A stretch of DNA of 32,316 nt from Desulfurococcales archaeon (GTDB lineage Archaea; Thermoproteota; Thermoprotei_A; Sulfolobales; NBVN01): NCBI GenBank assembly GCA_026986435.1, contig JALSOP010000122.1:1-32316 (forward strand). The letters run 5' to 3'. Positions within the stretch are counted from its first letter, which is position 1, and every line of letters starts with the position of its first letter. A model generated the notes under the pieces. It had not been told where the DNA came from. It saw nothing but the letters and a program-made list of their open reading frames with translations, and did no database searches. The position numbers and the translations under genes are program-made. Below are positions 6,377 through 16,817 of the stretch, in pieces.

Positions 6377-7210
6377 TTGCTCATAAACGAAGCCAGGGCC
6401 AGGGAACTGGGGAACCTATTCGGGAGCGTCGGCTTACGGGGTGTGACGGCCTTCGAGGACGAGGACCCGCAGATGAGGTCAGCGAAAACAATAGAGGCCA
6501 TATGCCCCGGCACCGCAGCTACGGCGCTCTATACTAACGCCTTGGTGAGCTACATGCTCCCCATGAAGGGGGAGAGGTACTGGGCTCTTTTCGCCGAGCA
6601 CATAACAAGGAGCTGCCCCAGGGGCTGGGAGCAGCTAATCGAGTCTGTGAAGGGGTTCACCAGTTCTGTACACAGGTTCGGGGTAAGGCAGAAGCTTAAC
6701 AGACTGGATGCACTGAGGCGCTGCGTAAGATTGGAAAACCTCATAAGGGTAGGTGATTACGTCGGCCTCTGGCACGAGACAGCTAGGTGCCTGAGAACAC
6801 AGAGAGACAAGAAGACCGTCGTATTCTCTGTGAAGATGGCGTACTATGGGAGGAGGGCAGCAGGTCACCGAGAGGCACTGCCGATGAGCATACCGATACC
6901 CGTCGATAGGAGGGTGGCCAGGGCATCAATACTCTCAGGCGTGATAGAGGGAGCAGCGAGCATTGAGGACCTGATGAGAAAGCACAGAATCGTTGCGAGA
7001 GCGTGGGGGATTGTGGCGGAGATTAGCGGCGTTCCCCCGCTTCACCTCGACTCAGTACTCTGGGTAATCACTTCATACTGGGAGATCCCTTCCCCCTATA
7101 AAGTGCTGAGGTCCTTGCCACAGGGTCTTGTTGAGAAGGTCGGCGAAGACCTGCTTCTTGTCATCATTAAGGAACTCCTGTTCTACCGGAGGAGCATTCG
7201 GCAAAACTAA
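6377..7210 (+). CDS. Archaeal 8-oxoguanine DNA glycosylase/lyase, AGOG type
   Basis: Base-excision repair enzyme that removes 8-oxoguanine and nicks the abasic site. The 277-residue product carries the AGOG core: RDKKTVVFSVKMAYY (143-157) followed by IPIPVDRRVARAS with Asp177. In Pyrobaculum AGOG the catalytic pair is Lys140 and Asp172; the same 32-residue spacing here points to Lys145 (or adjacent Lys146) and Asp177. The start is TTG 6377, supported by a strong AGGAGGG (6361-6367) nine bases upstream; no in-frame ATG lies nearby. It is slightly longer than the Pyrobaculum protein (about 256 residues). Its position after rad50-nurA-herA makes a loose repair neighbourhood. Confidence 0.85.
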   Translation: MLINEARARELGNLFGSVGLRGVTAFEDEDPQMRSAKTIEAICPGTAATALYTNALVSYMLPMKGERYWALFAEHITRSCPRGWEQLIESVKGFTSSVHRFGVRQKLNRLDALRRCVRLENLIRVGDYVGLWHETARCLRTQRDKKTVVFSVKMAYYGRRAAGHREALPMSIPIPVDRRVARASILSGVIEGAASIEDLMRKHRIVARAWGIVAEISGVPPLHLDSVLWVITSYWEIPSPYKVLRSLPQGLVEKVGEDLLLVIIKELLFYRRSIRQN

Positions 7211-7247
7211 TTTGCTTGTCCGCATACCGCCTATGGTCAGGTAGGTC

Positions 7248-7967
7248 ATGGTAGACGTCGTCATTGTAGAGAACCTCGTCAAGAGATACGGGGACGTCCT
7301 AGCGCTGAGGGGGATATCGTTCACTGTGAAACAGGGCGAGATATTCGGGCTCGTAGGCCCTAACGGCGCAGGAAAGACTACGACTCTCCGCATACTGGCG
7401 ACACTCCTAACACCTACCTCAGGCAGGGTCGAGGTGCTGGGCCACGATGTCGTTACTGAGAGGGACGAGATCCGGAAGCTGATGTCGTACCTGCCCGAGG
7501 AGGCGGGCGCTTACCCGTACCTCACGGGGAGGGAGTATCTGGAGCTAATGGCGAAAATATACAGGGCAGGCCTTGAGGCCGTTGAGGAAGGCATAAAGAT
7601 CGCTGGGCTCGGCGACGCAATCGACAGGCAGGTCCGGACGTACTCTAAGGGTATGAAGAGAAGGCTGCAGTTGGCGAGGGCACTCATGGTCAAGCCGAAG
7701 CTCGCCATACTGGATGAGCCGACATCGGGCCTCGACGTGATCCATGCTGTGCACGTTAGGAGAATGATCAAGCAGTACGCAAAGGAACACGGCGTCTCCG
7801 TTCTCCTCTCGTCTCACAACATGCTTGAGGTACACTACCTCTGCGATCGTGTAGCCCTCATCGACAAGGGCGTGCTGAAACTAGTGGGCAAGCCAGAGGA
7901 GCTGCTAGAGGAGTACGGGGCATCGAACCTTGAGGAGGTGTTCGTGAAGGTGGTGGCCCATGCTTAA
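7248..7967 (+). CDS. ABC-2 type transporter ATP-binding subunit
   Basis: A 239-residue ATPase that would power the permease encoded next. It has Walker A GPNGAGKT (37-44), a Q-loop region near SYLPEE, a signature in the YSKGM form (132-136) common in this subfamily, Walker B LAILDEP (152-158) and switch His190 (LSSH). The family (CcmA/NatA-like) exports drugs, Na+, lipids or polysaccharides; the substrate cannot be read from the sequence. ATG 7248 starts the frame. The end overlaps the permease start by eight bases, so the two are translationally coupled. Confidence 0.92.
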   Translation: MVDVVIVENLVKRYGDVLALRGISFTVKQGEIFGLVGPNGAGKTTTLRILATLLTPTSGRVEVLGHDVVTERDEIRKLMSYLPEEAGAYPYLTGREYLELMAKIYRAGLEAVEEGIKIAGLGDAIDRQVRTYSKGMKRRLQLARALMVKPKLAILDEPTSGLDVIHAVHVRRMIKQYAKEHGVSVLLSSHNMLEVHYLCDRVALIDKGVLKLVGKPEELLEEYGASNLEEVFVKVVAHA

Positions 7968-9288
7968 GGAGCTGATCATAAAGGACGTGAAGAACACCCT
8001 GCGCGACCTCAAGATAGTTGTTGGCGCGATAATCCTGCCATTCATATTGTTCTCGATAATGGGCATAGCGATCTCCGCTGGTGCCGGGCAGATGGTGCAG
8101 GAGGTGACGGAGAAAGTAAAAGCAGTTAACCTCATAGTGTGCGACGAGGACGCAAGCAACTACAGCACTCTCTATGTGAGCTTCCTCGAAAAGGTTGCGA
8201 GCAACGTCACCTACGCAACAAGCTGTAGCGCTTCGCCGGAGGAACTCCTTAGTCAAGGATACGACCTCGTGGTCGTTATCCCGAAGGGCTTCGGGGAGAA
8301 CATAAGCGAGGAGGACCCGGCCAACGTGGAGGTCTATACTAAAGTTAAGGGCGTGTCCATGACTGCCGTTTCCCTAGTGACGGCGATGGTGGGTGTCGTG
8401 AGGTCGGCGGCCGACATGCTCTCGTCCTACCTTCTCACGCAGGCGGGAGTTAAGCCGGAGTTCGCCTTCAGTCCTCTGAGGATAGAGTCACTCGTCATGA
8501 TGAGGGGAGAGATGGTCGACCTGAGGGTGCTTGAGTCAATAGCGTCCTCGATGTTCATGCTCATCTTCGCCCCACTAGTTGTCGTTTCCTCGGCGCTGGG
8601 CATGGCAGCGACATCCATGGCGAAGGAGAATGAGGAGAAGACCATGGAGGTACTCCTAACGTTGCCCGTGCCAAGAATTCATATAGTGCTGTCGAAGCTT
8701 GTTGGGACTATGATACTTGTGGCGCTCTCAACGATCTCATTCATAGGCGGCTTCGCGGTCTACGTAGGGAGCATAATGGCTATGGCCTCAGCACCGGAGA
8801 GTGGTGGGGCGGCATCGACCGGGTTCGGCACAGCGAGCTTCGTTGACCCTACCTTGATGGTGCTCTTTGGGACAGTGATATTCATCTCCTTGATGGCCGT
8901 GGCAGCGCTGGGCATACTCCTCGGGTCAATAGCCCCTGACTCGAGGGCTGTCGGCACCTACATAGGTCCTGTGAGCATAGTCGTGATGATACCCGCCTTC
9001 ATACTAATGTTCGTGGACTTGTCAAGCCTCTCACCAGCTGGGCAGGTGGCCCTCCTCCTAACGAGTCCATTCACAGCTGCCGTGATAGTCGTCAAGGCCT
9101 GGTTCGAGAGTGCTTACACATTCATTGCGGCCAGCATCGGTGTCTCACTGGCGTTTGTCCTAGCGCTCCTTTACCTATCATCAGCTCTTCTAGAAAGTGA
9201 GAAATTGTTAAGTCTTCAGTATAGACTTATGATGATGAGATCCGGCAAAGGAAGAAAGAGACGAAAGCGGCTCTTTTCGAGAAGTTAG
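7960..9288 (+). CDS. ABC-2 type transporter permease
   Basis: A 442-residue membrane protein with the ABC-2/NatB plan: one N-terminal membrane segment (about 21-43), a large extracytoplasmic domain (about 50-190), then several C-terminal segments from about residue 200. The cytoplasmic coupling-type motif KENEEKTMEVLLTLP lies between the second and third segments. The tail is strongly basic (RSGKGRKRRKRLFSRS) and probably cytoplasmic. It overlaps the ATPase gene and with it forms a complete exporter, working as two permeases plus two ATPases or as a dimer with itself. The substrate is unknown. Base composition is ordinary for the window, in contrast to the next three genes. Confidence 0.9.
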   Translation: MLKELIIKDVKNTLRDLKIVVGAIILPFILFSIMGIAISAGAGQMVQEVTEKVKAVNLIVCDEDASNYSTLYVSFLEKVASNVTYATSCSASPEELLSQGYDLVVVIPKGFGENISEEDPANVEVYTKVKGVSMTAVSLVTAMVGVVRSAADMLSSYLLTQAGVKPEFAFSPLRIESLVMMRGEMVDLRVLESIASSMFMLIFAPLVVVSSALGMAATSMAKENEEKTMEVLLTLPVPRIHIVLSKLVGTMILVALSTISFIGGFAVYVGSIMAMASAPESGGAASTGFGTASFVDPTLMVLFGTVIFISLMAVAALGILLGSIAPDSRAVGTYIGPVSIVVMIPAFILMFVDLSSLSPAGQVALLLTSPFTAAVIVVKAWFESAYTFIAASIGVSLAFVLALLYLSSALLESEKLLSLQYRLMMMRSGKGRKRRKRLFSRS

Positions 9289-9350
9289 AACAGGGTTTCG
9301 CATCCTTAACTTAATCTACCTTATAGTCCCGTATTATGCGGTAATGGGTG

Positions 9351-10103
9351 ATGAAGATACGGATTACGCCGCTGCTCTTCCTTGCAGTCTCTCTGACAAT
9401 GGTAGTGACGACGTCATTGAGCCATGCGGCCGATGCATGTATGGGTGAGGGTACTTTCAATCTCACATCTACAGCAACAGTGGTAACACCGGACGGGAAT
9501 TTTACTATAGATTTTCTGTTTCTGATTAATGTCACTAGAATTGATAGCGGATATAACATATCCGTTCTAGGAAAAATAGTTAACATAACAGGTCCTCCGG
9601 TAATTCTTCAAGCAAGAGTACCGTTATTCGACTTCGCCGTTAGCACGGACAAGGGAGAGTACAGATGGTCCGATGGGAAATTATTTACTGCAGTCATGCT
9701 ACCGGTGTCAAATGGCGTCACTTATGGAATGAGGCTTCAGAACATCGAATCCTCCTGCATAAGGTCGATAGTGATAGATGCGTCTGGCCTAGGTTTACAT
9801 AACCTGGTCATTATAGGTGAGAGCGGTCTCTGGGATAACGTTAGATTCGGTCTCGCTCAATCAGCCGAGACATCATCTACACACACGACTACCCGGACTA
9901 GCTCGCCATCATATAGTATGGTGACACCCACAGATACTGAGAGTTCCCTTTATGCCAAGGACCTATCCGTAAGTGCTGTCTACGCGGGTAAGGGAAATGC
10001 GCACGCGTGGGAGGGAAGCGTAGAGAGAAACCTTATGGCAGCACTCATAGCATTGCTCGCTGCCCTAGGCGTGGGTCTCCTTCTCTATACAGCCTTTACT
10101 TAG
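9351..10103 (+). CDS. Membrane-anchored exoprotein of unknown function
   Basis: Not recognised. The 250-residue product starts with a signal-type segment (ITPLLFLAVSLTMVVTTSL), continues as a beta-rich extracytoplasmic domain of about 150 residues with two Cys (CMGEG near the mature N-terminus and SSCIRS), then a Ser/Thr-rich linker (TSSTHTTTRTSSPSYS) and a C-terminal anchor (LMAALIALLAALGVGLLLYT). The two Cys could form a disulfide. ATG 9351 directly follows an in-frame GTG (9348), so either may be used. Composition is distinctly A+T-rich: 21 of 60 bases at 9481-9540 are G or C, against 33 of 60 at 8521-8580 in the permease. This suggests a different history from the upstream genes. Confidence 0.7.
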   Translation: MKIRITPLLFLAVSLTMVVTTSLSHAADACMGEGTFNLTSTATVVTPDGNFTIDFLFLINVTRIDSGYNISVLGKIVNITGPPVILQARVPLFDFAVSTDKGEYRWSDGKLFTAVMLPVSNGVTYGMRLQNIESSCIRSIVIDASGLGLHNLVIIGESGLWDNVRFGLAQSAETSSTHTTTRTSSPSYSMVTPTDTESSLYAKDLSVSAVYAGKGNAHAWEGSVERNLMAALIALLAALGVGLLLYTAFT

Positions 10104-10127
10104 GCGTCTCCAGTTTATAGCTCGTAA

Positions 10128-10134
10128 GGAGGGA
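10128..10134 (+). promoter_or_regulatory. Shine-Dalgarno site deciding a TTG start
   Basis: GGAGGGA lies six bases before TTG 10141. It supports that TTG over the in-frame GTG at 10150 and ATG at 10153. Confidence 0.6.
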
Positions 10135-10140
10135 TATTTT

Positions 10141-10584
10141 TTGGTTAAGGTGATGGCGAAGAAGAAAGCAACGACCTTACCCACAGGCACAGCGCTACAG
10201 ATATATCTCCTCCTAGTCTCGTCAAAGGAGCCCATGGGGGTTAGGGAAATACAGGCTAAGATAGGTCTTAAGTCACCGTCCACGGTCAAGTACCATCTTG
10301 ATAGACTTAGGAAGGATGGGCTAGTTATCCAGGTTCCGGACGGTAGATACGCAGCTGCCAAGGCGGATGACCCGCTTACTGGCCTTTACTTTTTCATAAA
10401 GAACTCTCCGATACCTAGATTAATACCAGCGTCTCTCTCATTCGCTGTGTTTATAGCTACATATTTGATCCTTACTCAACAACTAGACCTCTTCATATTA
10501 GGTGCGACTATAGGCTTCGTAATCTATGTTATAATAGAGGGCAGTAGATTAAGGAAACTGATAAGATTTCTTCTGGAAAAATAA
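10141..10584 (+). CDS. Membrane-tethered winged-helix DNA-binding protein
   Basis: A 147-residue protein with an N-terminal winged helix-turn-helix (about 15-72). The recognition region reads KSPSTVKYHLDRLRKDGLV, and the wing is IQVPDGRY. Two hydrophobic segments follow (about 95-115 and 119-138), then a short basic tail. The layout suggests a transcription regulator held at the inner face of the membrane. TTG 10141 is supported by a strong ribosome site; ATG 10153 is the alternative. It lies between an exoprotein and a protein kinase on the same strand, so it may relay a surface signal to DNA. Ligand and target genes are unknown. Confidence 0.75.
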   Translation: MVKVMAKKKATTLPTGTALQIYLLLVSSKEPMGVREIQAKIGLKSPSTVKYHLDRLRKDGLVIQVPDGRYAAAKADDPLTGLYFFIKNSPIPRLIPASLSFAVFIATYLILTQQLDLFILGATIGFVIYVIIEGSRLRKLIRFLLEK

Positions 10585-10624
10585 AGCTGGTAGAGGTAAA
10601 AAAATAGTTTGAGGAGAGGCTAAT

Positions 10625-11893
10625 ATGAGGAAAGAGCCCATTCGTGGCGAGCAAGCAGTTAGGGATATAATATCGGAGAACTATACAGGCATTATTTCGT
10701 TATTTAAGCGGCGTAAGACTACCTCAGCAAAAGACACGGGTAGCACAACTGAGCCCTCGCCCGGGATGCGCCTATACGCTTATGAGCTTATCAAACTCCT
10801 CGGTGAGGGGGCATATTCGCGCGTGTGGCTCGGCAGAAATGATAAGGGGGATTACGTTGCAATAAAAGTGATTAAGCCGATCTCGGGTGAGTTCCTCTCG
10901 CAAAGAGAGTTAATGATTCTATCAGAGGAGGTAAGGCGAGCTTTCGAAGTGAGCTATGCGAGACTATTAAGTCATTCCTCTTCGACGTTCTCGCACAACG
11001 TGGTCAAGGTACTTGACATCAACATGAGGCCCGTACTTAGATACCTATCTGGAGGAAGACCATACGAGAACGCGGAGGAATATAGAAAGGATCCGCCCTA
11101 CTTAGTGATGGAATACGTTTCGGGCGGCTCAATAATCGATAATCGAAGAATAATACTTGCCTCACCTAAGATGTTCCTTTGCACAGTGAAGCAGATGGTC
11201 GGGGCAGTTAAGTTCGTCACAGAAGCTCTAAGGGAAAGGGTACACGGCGACGTAAAACCAGATAATATCCTGGTAAGAGCTGGTGGGCGTTTTCCCGTGC
11301 CGGTGCTAACAGACTTCGGCACATCGATCAACATTACATGGGATGGCTGGCTATTCGGAACCCCTGAATATATGCCGCCAGAGGGCCTGCTCTACCCTGC
11401 CAGTAGCGCCATTACGTCAAGCTACGACACCTATTCTCTCGGACTGACGATTTACGAACTCCTTACCGGAGAGATACCCAGCACTCAATCTCTCCTTATA
11501 GCCGTATCGAGACACCCGCTTCTTAAGTCAGAAAGAAGATCACCGCACATAACCAGGCTTGCGAGGTCTTTTGATGAACCGCCTGGTCAGCTTATTACGG
11601 CAGCGGAGAAGGTCATCTATAGTGAGCAACTACCACAAGGAGATGGGATAATACACCGGTTGAGAGCACTGGAGGATGAACTTAATGAGGGGTCACTGAA
11701 ACAGTTACGAATACATGACCTAAATGTCCTCGAAGAAGCGGTAAGTAAGGCGAGGCAACCCGAGGAAACTAAGGATCTAGTAAAAGAATTAATAAGGATC
11801 GGTCCCACTCAGAGGCCTGCTCTTGATGTGCTCCTCAAATACGTTGATAATATCTTATTGAGCTATGGTATTAAATGCGAAAATCAAGAATGA
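10625..11893 (+). CDS. Eukaryotic-like Ser/Thr protein kinase
   Basis: A 422-residue soluble protein kinase. After a polar N-terminal tail of about 47 residues come the Gly-rich loop GEGAYSRVWLG (60-70), Lys81 in VAIK, hinge-type LVMEYVSGGS, catalytic loop HGDVKPDN (207-214, base Asp209), DFG (230-232), GTPEYMPPE (245-253, APE equivalent) and Asp268 in DTYSLGLTIYELL. All catalytic residues are present; the HRD Arg is Gly, suggesting activity may not need activation-loop phosphorylation. There is no transmembrane segment. ATG 10625 has GAGGAG eight bases upstream. The end overlaps the CcdA-fusion gene. Codon use is A+T-richer than in most of the window. Substrates are unknown; the adjacent HTH protein is a candidate. 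Confidence 0.93.
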   Translation: MRKEPIRGEQAVRDIISENYTGIISLFKRRKTTSAKDTGSTTEPSPGMRLYAYELIKLLGEGAYSRVWLGRNDKGDYVAIKVIKPISGEFLSQRELMILSEEVRRAFEVSYARLLSHSSSTFSHNVVKVLDINMRPVLRYLSGGRPYENAEEYRKDPPYLVMEYVSGGSIIDNRRIILASPKMFLCTVKQMVGAVKFVTEALRERVHGDVKPDNILVRAGGRFPVPVLTDFGTSINITWDGWLFGTPEYMPPEGLLYPASSAITSSYDTYSLGLTIYELLTGEIPSTQSLLIAVSRHPLLKSERRSPHITRLARSFDEPPGQLITAAEKVIYSEQLPQGDGIIHRLRALEDELNEGSLKQLRIHDLNVLEEAVSKARQPEETKDLVKELIRIGPTQRPALDVLLKYVDNILLSYGIKCENQE

Positions 11894-13443
11894 AATTCTT
11901 ACACACTATCCTTAAACCCTCCCTTGAACTACATCAACGGTGTCCGGTGGTGGGACATAAAAGAATAATCGTAGCCGCAGTTATCATCGTTTTGACTATA
12001 AGCCCACTTATAGGCTTGTCTTACCAGGTACCTGACCCATACTACCTAATCTATGGATCCACACTATGCCCGCATTGCAGAGCTCTCAAAGCATTCATGG
12101 AAGAAGAATTTCCTAGCAACTTTGGCTTCTGCCCTATCAATACTGACGAGTCCTGTGCGACGCTCTACCAGCTCGTTCATGCGTTTCTTGGACTCCCCCT
12201 TAACGCTACTTACGGAGCTGTGCCCTTCACGCTTGTTGTGAGAGAAGGAGCCGTTGTCGGCATAGTGATTGGCGAGATGGAAAATAAGACGTTCTGGGAA
12301 AGCTTCGAACCCAGCAACAGAGTAAGTATCTACCTAGGTCCGTACCTGAGGGGGTACGTAGCGACTAACCAAACGCTGATGACGGGACTCTTCGTTAAGC
12401 CCGCGATGATCGAGGACACCACGCTAAGGTCGGCGGCCACGAAGCTGGTAGCTGCGTACCTATACGCGTATGCTTCCTACATAATGTTCGACTCGGCTGG
12501 AGAAATCGGCATGGCGAAGCTAATGAACGAGACCAAGGACACGATCCTCAACGCCTATCTGAAGATAGTTGATGAGCTACTAAGTAACAAAGCGCCTGAC
12601 AAAGGCTCGCTCAGCATGCTAGAGAATGCTTCAGAGCAGGCCAAGAGGGCGGGTGAGGAGGGCACTGACGACAGAGGCAGATCGTTCGCTCATGAGGCAG
12701 CGCTCAACATATTAGAAGCGCTGAAAACCTTGACAGGTTCGAGTCACAACAACGAGGGTGGCGGGAACACCGAGCTGCCCACACCCCAAAGTAACGTAGT
12801 AACAGCGTTACTGACTGCCGTGGGCTTGGCCTCCATAGACGCCTTCAACCCGTGCTTCCTCACGCTCTATGCCGTCATATTACTCTCGGTGGCAGCAGGC
12901 ACCACGCGGGGGAGGCCGATAAGGAAGTTATTAGTAGTGGGCCTATCCTTCACTGCCGCCGTATTCATAGGGTACTACATCATGGGCGTGGGCCTCTCCG
13001 CGATCTTCGAGAAAATACCCAGGTACGTGTTTCCTGCCATAGCCTTCGTCGCTGGCGCCTGGATGATCTATAGCGGCCTAAGGGATAGAGGAGAGTGTAA
13101 GGTCTGCCGTGAGGGCGAGAGATACTCAGCTGCCTCAGCGGCGGCTGCGTTCGCACTGGGCCTCACTGCCACGTTCACGCTCCTTCCCTGCACAGCGGGG
13201 CCCTATCTATTCTTCACCTCCCTGGCATCAAGTTACGACATGGTCACAAGGCTCGGCCTCCTAGCAATATATAATATCATATTCGTCCTTCCCCTCTTCA
13301 TAATCTTGGTATCGGTAGCTGCCGCCGTCGCGAAGGTTGAGGGAATCAAGGAGTGGATGGTGAGGAACTCCTATAAGGTATCAGTGGCGGGCGGTGCAGC
13401 CTTGATAGGGATAGGCACATACACGCTGGCATTCCTGCACTAG
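11890..13443 (+). CDS. Thioredoxin-like/CcdA (DsbD-type) transmembrane fusion protein
   Basis: A thiol-disulfide carrier across the membrane. With the ATGA start at 11890 (517 residues): a membrane anchor (about 26-45), an extracytoplasmic thioredoxin-like domain with CPHC (60-63), a long linker domain (about 150-290), then a six-helix CcdA/DsbD-type domain. That domain has the two transmembrane Cys, in NPCFLTLYAV (Cys322) and TLLPCTAGPY (Cys434), plus an extra CKVC (403-406) in the central loop. CcdA proteins pass electrons from cytosolic thioredoxin to outside partners, so the fused domain may be the recipient. An upstream in-frame ATG at 11875 is possible. The gene overlaps the kinase stop and meets birA tail-to-tail with a four-base overlap. 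Confidence 0.82.
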   Translation: MKFLHTILKPSLELHQRCPVVGHKRIIVAAVIIVLTISPLIGLSYQVPDPYYLIYGSTLCPHCRALKAFMEEEFPSNFGFCPINTDESCATLYQLVHAFLGLPLNATYGAVPFTLVVREGAVVGIVIGEMENKTFWESFEPSNRVSIYLGPYLRGYVATNQTLMTGLFVKPAMIEDTTLRSAATKLVAAYLYAYASYIMFDSAGEIGMAKLMNETKDTILNAYLKIVDELLSNKAPDKGSLSMLENASEQAKRAGEEGTDDRGRSFAHEAALNILEALKTLTGSSHNNEGGGNTELPTPQSNVVTALLTAVGLASIDAFNPCFLTLYAVILLSVAAGTTRGRPIRKLLVVGLSFTAAVFIGYYIMGVGLSAIFEKIPRYVFPAIAFVAGAWMIYSGLRDRGECKVCREGERYSAASAAAAFALGLTATFTLLPCTAGPYLFFTSLASSYDMVTRLGLLAIYNIIFVLPLFIILVSVAAAVAKVEGIKEWMVRNSYKVSVAGGAALIGIGTYTLAFLH

Positions 13444-14803: not shown

Positions 14804-15835
14804 CTACGGACACGTGAGCTCCTTCCTTAACTCCACTCTCTCTAGTCCCTTCCTCTTTAGCTCCTCCCTAACGATCTTGGTGCCCTCGACCATCACCCTC
14901 AGCTTCTGCCTCGCTATCCTCCTCGGCAGGAGCTTCAGCCCACAGTCTGGGTTTATGAAGAGGCATTCGGGAGGCACATACTGCATGACCTTCCTTATCG
15001 CCGCAGCGACCTCCTCCGGTGACTCCACCCTCCTGCTGTGGACGTCGACGACCCCGAAGCCCAATTCCTTGTTAAGGCCCTTCAGAACCTCCAGATCCCT
15101 GAACCCCCTGTTAGCGAATTCCAGGGCGAACTGAGAGACGTTTAATCTGTCATAATAGGGCCTGAGGATGCCGTAGTCGCTGTAGCAGACGTGGAGCCCG
15201 ACCTTGATGTTCACGCCCTTAACGGCCTCGTTCACGGCCTCTATTGCCCACTCTATTTCTTCGGGGTGGGTCGTCAGCGCTGGTTCATCGACTTGAACAT
15301 ATATGGCGCCTGCCTCCTCAAGGGCCTTTATCTCTCTGTTTATTATTCTAGCAATCTCGAAAGCCAGGTCCTCCTTGCTCGGATAGTACTCGTTGAACGA
15401 CCAGTCCGCTATAGTGTAGGGCCCTGTTATCGTCACCTTAACTACTTCGGAGTAAGTCACCCTCCTAGTGAAGAGGAACTCATCTACGACCATCGGCCCC
15501 TTGTACCTAAGCTTAGAGACGACAGCCGGCTTACGGAAGTAGTTATTGCCCCAGACTCTCACCGGGCCGTAGAACTTGAAACCATCGATCCTCTCAGCAA
15601 AGTACTCAACCATCTCATCCCTCCTCATCTCTCCATCCGACGGTATGTCGACACCGGCCTCCCTATGGTCATTGAGCACGGCTATGACCGCATCGTCGAA
15701 CGCCTCCCTCATCTGCTCCTCCTTGTACCTCCTCTCCCTATAACCGGCGATGAACTCTCTCAACCACTTTGGCCTCGGGTAGGAACCGATCACGGTTGTT
15801 GGGAGAACGGGGAGCTCCACACTCCTCCACACCAT
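14804..15835 (-). CDS. metE: Archaeal methionine synthase (core MetE, catalytic)
   Basis: Cobalamin-independent methionine synthase that methylates homocysteine. The 343 residues match only the C-terminal catalytic barrel of bacterial MetE. All four zinc/thiol ligands appear at the expected spacing: His215 and Cys217 (GLHVCYSDY), Glu239 (FALEFANRG) and Cys298 ([10 protein letters not shown]). The opening [10 protein letters not shown] and [13 protein letters not shown] are typical substrate-site motifs. Without the bacterial N-terminal half, the methyl donor is probably not the usual polyglutamylated methyl-tetrahydrofolate, as argued for other core-MetE proteins. ATG 15835 follows a GGGGGTG ribosome site, and the gene starts four bases after its zinc-less paralogue. 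Confidence 0.9.
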
Positions 15836-15839
15836 TTCT

Positions 15840-16817
15840 TCACACCCCCGACTCGCGTACGAGCCTCCTCTTCACCCTCCCAAGGAACCTGACCTTCTTC
15901 CTAGCGACGGGCTCGGGTAGGAAATCAAGCAACGTATTGTTGGCAACGAAAACTTCCTCAGCACCATCCTCAGCGACCCTCTTTGCTAAAGAGACTAAAG
16001 CTCTGCATCTCTCCATCTTTGTATTCCTGGCATCAACGGCTCCCAGCGCCAACCGCTTCACTCCGGCACTCACCATCTTCCCTGCATCGGTCCCAGAAAC
16101 TACGTCGACGGCGACAACGAAGCCCTCACCGAGCCTAGCCAGCATATCGACTACGGGATCCGCTGGCCGGAAGTACGTAACGTACCAACCTTCATTAACG
16201 CTGGCCACAAGTTCGACAGCCTTAACCCACAAGTCTCTCCTGGACAAATCCCAGACAATCTCAGGTTCATGGAATTCCGGAACACAACCCCCCTTAATGA
16301 GATCCTTAGTCAGTGGCTCGAGCACACCACTCCACCATTTATCAATAAGGTCTTCAACGTCCTCACCCTCAGCAATCGAGGCGGAGGCAATGGTTGCTGG
16401 GCCGGGTAACGGCTGCTTAAGCGTGACCTGTCCTTTCACACCGAGTTTCTCCAGGACCTCAACACCCTTTCTGCACCAAGCCGTAATCGGTTCGCTATCT
16501 TTGAGGGAAGGATCGGACTTTACGACAGGGGCCCTGAAGAAGAAGTTATTGTCGTAGAACCTCACAAGCCCGTTCACCTCGACACCGTCCACGAACCTTA
16601 TTAGTGGGTTGAATATGTCGTCCCACCTAAGCATCCCGTCGGTGAAGGAGTCGAGGCCGGCCTTAACGAAGGTACCTATGAGCCTCTCAGTCTCCGCCCC
16701 TATTAGGCGCTCGAATTCCTCCATCCCTATAACGCCTTTGATAAGCTTTCTGTGGATGGTGGCTACCTTTTCGCTCCTCGGGTAGGAACCGATTAGGGCA
16801 GCGCCGAACACCGCCAT
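15840..16817 (-). CDS. MetE-like paralogue lacking zinc ligands
   Basis: A 325-residue protein with the MetE barrel plan: an opening [24 protein letters not shown] matching the substrate loop of metE, and a [13 protein letters not shown] stretch like the [11 protein letters not shown] of its neighbour. The zinc-binding positions are lost: the HxC region reads [10 protein letters not shown], and the last Cys region reads [11 protein letters not shown] instead of [10 protein letters not shown]. It is therefore unlikely to activate homocysteine. It is first in the operon, four bases before metE, so the products probably act as a pair; it may bind the methyl donor or carrier. Paired MetE-like genes are known in Sulfolobales. 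The role is inferred. Confidence 0.75.

Follow-up and report, generated by a model that had tools for sequence, protein, structure and literature searches.

A conserved pair of a surface-anchored exoprotein and a membrane-bound winged-helix regulator with a candidate autoregulatory operator in Thermoproteota

To our knowledge, the routes by which a signal from outside the cell reaches a gene are poorly known in archaea of the phylum Thermoproteota. Among the systems closest to the one considered here are the co-component systems ToxR/ToxS, VtrA/VtrC and TcpP/TcpH, which have been described in enteric bacteria in an account that leaves archaea unmentioned (PMC9214523). In Sulfolobus acidocaldarius, ArnR and ArnR1 are phosphorylated by the Hanks-type kinase ArnC (PMC6396743), and a survey of transmembrane transcriptional regulators (TTRs) notes Thermoproteota as enriched in TTRs and treats them as one-component proteins (PMC10269533). 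In the present study, we analysed a stretch of 32,316 nucleotides (the window) on contig C122 (JALSOP010000122.1) of the 1.54 Mb genome of a Desulfurococcales archaeon (GCA_026986435.1). Four plus-strand open reading frames (ORFs) in the window encode, in order, an exoprotein, a small winged helix-turn-helix (wHTH) protein with two transmembrane (TM) helices, called here wHTH-2TM, a Ser/Thr protein kinase and a thioredoxin-CcdA (Trx-CcdA) fusion. The four same-strand genes and their domains had been named in a first-pass annotation, and both the ORFs and the domain matches bear this out. Judged from their sequences, the exoprotein and the wHTH-2TM regulator are the core pair of the locus, and this pair is conserved widely across Thermoproteota.

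The exoprotein is encoded at 9351..10103 on the plus strand (251 aa, with GTG 9348 or ATG 9351 as start). It consists of a signal peptide, an ectodomain at about residues 28-157, a Ser/Thr-rich disordered stalk at about 158-220 and a C-terminal TM helix at 229-247. The ectodomain is all-beta and carries two conserved cysteines and a BsuPI-like motif; the relation to BsuPI is a weak sequence lead, with E values of 0.04, 0.04, 0.0009 and 0.003 in four orthologs. For comparison we used the sister species (G159, a Desulfurococcales metagenome-assembled genome (MAG), WAOK01), the one additional representative of the genus in the genome set searched. Here the exoprotein shows 63% identity over the aligned N-terminal part by BLAST and 55% overall by tblastn, distributed as 23/30 residues in the TM helix, 90/130 in the ectodomain, 20/63 in the stalk and 8/27 in the signal peptide.

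The regulator follows at 10141..10584 on the plus strand (147 aa, from a TTG start or from ATG 10153). Its N-terminal winged HTH gives Pfam matches of the LexA/ArsR type at 1e-5 to 1e-6, the Pfam and NCBIfam matches together are LexA/ArsR/Lrs14-like only, and a fold search of the PDB returned only generic winged helices, none of them below E 0.001. A spacing of about 20 residues leads from the wHTH to the first TM helix (94-112), and the second (114-132) comes after hardly any loop. The recognition helix, SPST-K-HLDRL, is near-invariant. Relatives found with the HTH profile belong to Desulfurococcales, Pyrodictiaceae, Acidilobaceae and Thermoprotei MAGs. There is also a second HTH-2TM subgroup (L232, L235-L239), whose genes are transcribed divergently from one that encodes a large protein of about 600-730 aa carrying a signal at its N-terminus.

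The pairing of the two genes is conserved. In Desulfurococcales and related Thermoprotei, the gene upstream of wHTH-2TM encodes a signal-peptide/C-terminal-TM protein at 23 of the 24 loci with a complete, adjacent, same-strand upstream gene, compared with 6 of 119 control neighbours (Fisher p 5e-20). Over the whole phylum such a neighbour was found at 61/109 loci (37 upstream, 24 downstream) versus 19/264 control genes, a count made with a crude TM rule by which several of the misses had just one of the two TM helices called. The genes of the pair overlap by 16-22 bp at several loci. In Thermoproteota outside the class (L161-L219) the order is reversed, with wHTH-2TM first and then, mostly 20-60 bp downstream, a small signal-peptide/TM protein of 83-146 aa. 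The partner ectodomains have no recognisable relation between families. In two further genera of the family, g9 (G160, G161) and g8 (G157, G158), the arrangement is AGOG, a small opposite-strand ORF, the exoprotein gene and the HTH gene, after which unrelated genes follow; no kinase, CcdA or ATP-binding cassette (ABC) genes are present at this site. In other genera of the family (L098, L099), only a small opposite-strand ORF separates AGOG from the exoprotein; an ABC ATPase/permease pair (6377-9288) lies between them in this genus only.

A second line of evidence is the palindrome CTTTTCGAGAAGTTAGAACA at 9273..9292 (consensus TGTTCGAAnnnTTMGAACA), which is proposed as the operator of the HTH protein. 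It shares bases with the stop codon of the preceding permease gene and is the best position weight matrix site of the entire window, at the same place on both strands. Alignment with the sister species outlines the exoprotein promoter region at 9284..9326 on the plus strand: the 36 bp at 9284-9319, from part of the operator through CTTAACTTAATCTAC, are identical, with the adjoining exoprotein gene diverged, and the TATA-like CTTATAG (9320-9326, plus strand) comes directly after them. When 31 non-redundant upstream regions were searched by expectation maximisation, the motif tTGTTCGAAnnnTTAGAt was recovered with a log-likelihood ratio of 173.7 versus 55-62.4 in shuffles; in a dyad search the signal was near noise. 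The leave-one-out scores exceeded those of all 201 control upstream regions, from which divergent promoters and HTH operons had been excluded, at 20 of the 31 loci and the 95th percentile at 24 (Mann-Whitney p 5e-14). The motif is mostly situated about 45-100 bp ahead of the start codon, with an AT-rich, TATA-like stretch after it. The site is nearly unique in the genome. In scans of four genomes allowing at most one mismatch, it preceded the exoprotein operon in all four, and one extra site was found in two of them: the source genome has one more inside apparent coding DNA and G161 one besides its own, while G159 and G160 have the exoprotein site only. At HTH genes without an upstream partner, the motif can precede the HTH gene itself (L235, L208, L212), with a perfect palindrome, GTTCGAATGCTTCGAAC, at L208; the HTH protein is therefore its likely binder. 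That both the recognition helix and the palindrome are conserved implies that the protein sits on its own promoter as a dimer. At L235 the GTTCGA motif lies inside the intergenic region shared with the divergent large-protein gene.

From these results we consider it likely that the core of the locus is a two-gene transmembrane signalling pair, regulating itself through the palindrome at 9273-9292. The exoprotein, with its C-terminal TM anchor, flexible stalk and fast-evolving ectodomain, would be the input, and the wHTH-2TM protein would be the output because it has almost no extracytoplasmic part. The signal may cross the membrane by contact between the exoprotein TM helix and those of the regulator. 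The regulator, probably as a dimer, would bind the palindrome, which immediately precedes the TATA region, and thereby control its own operon, comprising the exoprotein, the HTH protein and, by read-through, the kinase. What the sequences show directly is the conservation of the pairing, of the palindrome and of the recognition helix, together with the near-uniqueness of the palindrome in the genome; binding, dimerisation, TM contact, the ligand and the direction of regulation are inferred. It is plausible, by analogy with the action of ArnC on ArnR, that the kinase phosphorylates and so modulates the regulator. The Trx-CcdA protein would be the general outward carrier of thiol reductant of the cell, encoded next door under its own promoter. 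Whether the pair stands for a whole class is about evenly balanced in our judgement. Such a class would be Thermoproteota-wide and previously undescribed, with a small wHTH-2TM protein linked across the membrane to a surface protein that has a single TM pass and an exchangeable ectodomain, autoregulation via a conserved GTTCGAA-n3-TTCGAAC operator, and Hanks-type kinases wired in in some genera. No description of the archaeal pair or its palindrome was found in the open subset of PubMed Central, which is not proof of absence.

Several observations weigh against this interpretation. The motif is weak or absent at about 7-11 of the 31 loci, and in Sulfolobaceae the HTH family is mostly without such a partner. 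The HTH gene may have a promoter of its own, as a TATA-like TTTATA at 10114-10119 (plus strand) ahead of it is conserved in the sister species, and the spacer before CcdA may also hold a promoter belonging to that gene. For the ectodomain, AlphaFold2 gave a low-confidence model (pLDDT 52) that had no significant match in the PDB. Furthermore, the TM and signal-peptide calls come from simple hydropathy, the gene calls are mechanical with uncertain start codons, and most of the genomes are MAGs.

The third gene (10625..11893, plus strand, 422 aa) encodes a soluble Hanks-type Ser/Thr protein kinase, matching PF00069 at 1.7e-26, in which the catalytic motifs are complete (GxGxxSxV, VAIK, HGDVKPDN, DFG and an APE-type motif). 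It is a genus-specific neighbour of the pair. Full-length relatives were found only within the genus, in a paralog on contig C25 of G000 (the source genome) and of G159, and in G139. The nearest of them (34%) belongs to a cluster of kinase, vWA and FHA/zinc-ribbon genes in the same genome. The paralogs adjoin vWA genes and, on C25, also FHA/zinc-ribbon genes; the kinase of the window has no vWA or FHA gene beside it. The sets on C25 (G000, L108:136-4111; G159, L109) comprise a kinase whose N-terminal part has 7-8 TM helices, then vWA, then the FHA/zinc-ribbon protein; they are ArnA/ArnB-like and have a MoeA gene on one side and other genes on the opposite side. A defence kinase identity (MAD6, PD-T4-6) was also considered for the kinase of the window and rejected, the similarity being that of generic kinase domains.

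The Trx-CcdA gene is best placed at 11947..13443 on the plus strand. The listed ORF starts at 11875 (522 aa), but homology favours GTG 11947, the position at which the sister-species protein begins, and this leaves a kinase-CcdA spacer of about 53 bp. The overlap of the kinase and CcdA genes, among the short gaps or overlaps ascribed to the four genes in the first-pass annotation, probably stems from a misassigned start codon. The protein joins a CPHC thioredoxin/glutaredoxin-like domain to a CcdA-like membrane domain in which the cysteines of the NPC and LPC motifs, one in each of two TM helices, are invariant. The N-terminal part matches glutaredoxin/thioredoxin chains weakly, and the Pfam search gave a weak SfLAP match only. 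In this genus the linker between the Trx and CcdA parts is about 120 aa longer than in most relatives, and there is an extra CxxC (CKVC).

The four genes had been read initially as one signalling and redox unit, with the exoprotein as the sensor, the HTH protein as a substrate of the kinase, and the disulfide state of the exoprotein under the control of Trx-CcdA. The surface-to-DNA half of this proposal is upheld by the phylum-wide pairing and the shared palindrome, but the four-gene unit as a whole we regard as improbable. In its favour, the genes lie on one strand with short gaps, their order is retained in the sister species, the exoprotein has two conserved cysteines, and ArnC and ArnR offer a precedent for the kinase step (PMC6396743). 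However, a search of other archaeal genomes found all four genes in order only in the source genome and G159, where the flanks are collinear as well, from the left edge of the window via AGOG and the ABC genes to biotin ligase and beyond (BLAST identities of 83% for HTH, 66% for the kinase, 78% for CcdA and mostly 78-96% for the flanking genes). Since the order is kept only inside this fully syntenic block, it says nothing about a functional unit. Trx-CcdA matches were found in 113/229 genomes of the class with varied neighbours, often without exoprotein, HTH or kinase, and in the present locus a TATA-like element, CCTTAAAC (11910..11917, plus strand), which is conserved in G159 and lies between the kinase gene and the Trx-CcdA start, suggests a separate promoter. 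The cysteines, proposed as a target of the thioredoxin domain, make weak evidence, as both are invariant also in g9 orthologs without an adjacent CcdA gene. The genes downstream of the pair vary between genomes (AMMECR1, metallo-beta-lactamase, MarC, TrkA_C, radical SAM and others). Trx-CcdA is therefore probably an independent neighbour, and its membership in the unit is unsupported. A still more remote explanation, to which we give very little credence, is that these are unrelated genes of a recently acquired low-G+C island. The fall in G+C itself was described correctly: 46.7% over 9351-11893 versus 56.7% in the remainder of the window, with the lowest 2.5-kb stretch beginning at 9459 and a G+C at third codon positions of 0.46-0.49 in the exoprotein, HTH and kinase genes versus 0.62-0.73 in flanking genes. 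On recount, the value of 21/60 at 9481-9540 was exact and that at 11101-11160 was 24/60 instead of 25/60. Nevertheless, the sister species has the same genes in the same order, and the stretch from AGOG to CcdA is G+C-poor there too, by which recent horizontal acquisition of the block was rejected; other genera also have the exoprotein and HTH genes at this position next to AGOG, which largely refutes the island for the pair.

Two other explanations keep the pair and differ in its boundary or its logic. The kinase could be a real third component of the operon in this genus, with CcdA as a bystander, and we hold this to be possible although somewhat short of an even chance. The kinase gene begins 40 bp after the HTH gene with a Shine-Dalgarno-like GAGGAG upstream, and alignment with G159 showed no conserved promoter in the HTH-kinase spacer; co-transcription is likely for these reasons. 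In addition, both species retain the kinase (66% identity), and a Hanks-type kinase is known to phosphorylate the membrane-bound ArnR/ArnR1 (PMC6396743). Against a third component, the kinase is found beside the pair only in the two genomes of the genus and is absent there in all other genera seen, and its paralogs operate alongside vWA/FHA proteins. With respect to the pair, the kinase is a genus-level local addition. Alternatively, the exoprotein may be an effector associated with the envelope or S-layer and not a sensor, the HTH protein sensing the state of the membrane itself and controlling exoprotein production. The existence of partnerless HTH proteins, the position of the palindrome before the exoprotein gene and the unrelated ectodomains of the different families would all fit such a role. 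We find it unlikely, because adjacency to a membrane-anchored single-pass partner is near-obligate in either gene order, and an input must be supplied to a regulator that itself has hardly any extracytoplasmic part. Outside these genes, at 14804-16817 on the minus strand, a cobalamin-independent methionine synthase reading runs across a pair of neighbouring genes encoding 343 and 325 aa, of which the Pfam check covered the first only.

In comparison with the known archaeal proteins, ArnR/ArnR1 resemble the regulator of the signalling pair in being archaeal and membrane-bound, with an N-terminal HTH and two C-terminal TM helices. ArnR, however, possesses a sensor domain as well as a HAMP-like domain and adjoins the archaellum operon, whereas the 147-aa regulator is without HAMP or sensor domain, and the accessible part of the source describes no exoprotein partner for ArnR (PMC6396743). 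The regulator profile has a single match in G213, taken as S. acidocaldarius, and this is distant from the archaellin genes. No PF01917 match, that is, no archaellin, was found in the source genome or in G159, and a role in archaellum regulation was ruled out for both genomes of the genus. As to the Hanks-type kinases linked with ArnA (FHA) and ArnB (vWA), the kin cluster is the one on C25; the kinase of the window differs in being soluble and without vWA or FHA neighbours. TTRs share with the regulator a DNA-binding domain joined to a TM region, while the accessible part of the TTR survey (PMC10269533) yielded neither an archaeal exoprotein partner nor a shared operator.

The closest likeness is to the co-component systems. 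Common to them and to the pair are adjacent, often overlapping genes, a membrane-tethered wHTH factor, a single-pass partner and the fast evolution of the extracytoplasmic domain of that partner. The co-component factor has a CadC/OmpR-type HTH, one TM helix and a periplasmic domain, whereas the regulator here has a LexA/ArsR-like wHTH, two TM helices and no ectodomain; the co-component partner is encoded downstream, whereas the archaeal partner is usually encoded upstream in this class. Co-component partners are lipocalin-like; the ectodomain of the archaeal partner is all-beta, with a low-confidence model, no significant PDB match and a weak BsuPI motif. Thus two defining features, the periplasmic domain on the factor and a CadC/OmpR-type HTH homologous to ToxR/VtrA, are absent, and we do not class the pair as a member of these systems even though the tethered wHTH factor and the adjacent single-TM partner gene are both present. 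The pair with its predicted operator offers a concrete test system for ectodomain sensing, for membrane crossing without a histidine kinase and for membrane-held autoregulation. By analogy, it most likely works like the bacterial co-component systems while being built from other parts; if this is true, the co-component idea would be extended from enteric bacteria to archaea by way of unrelated parts.

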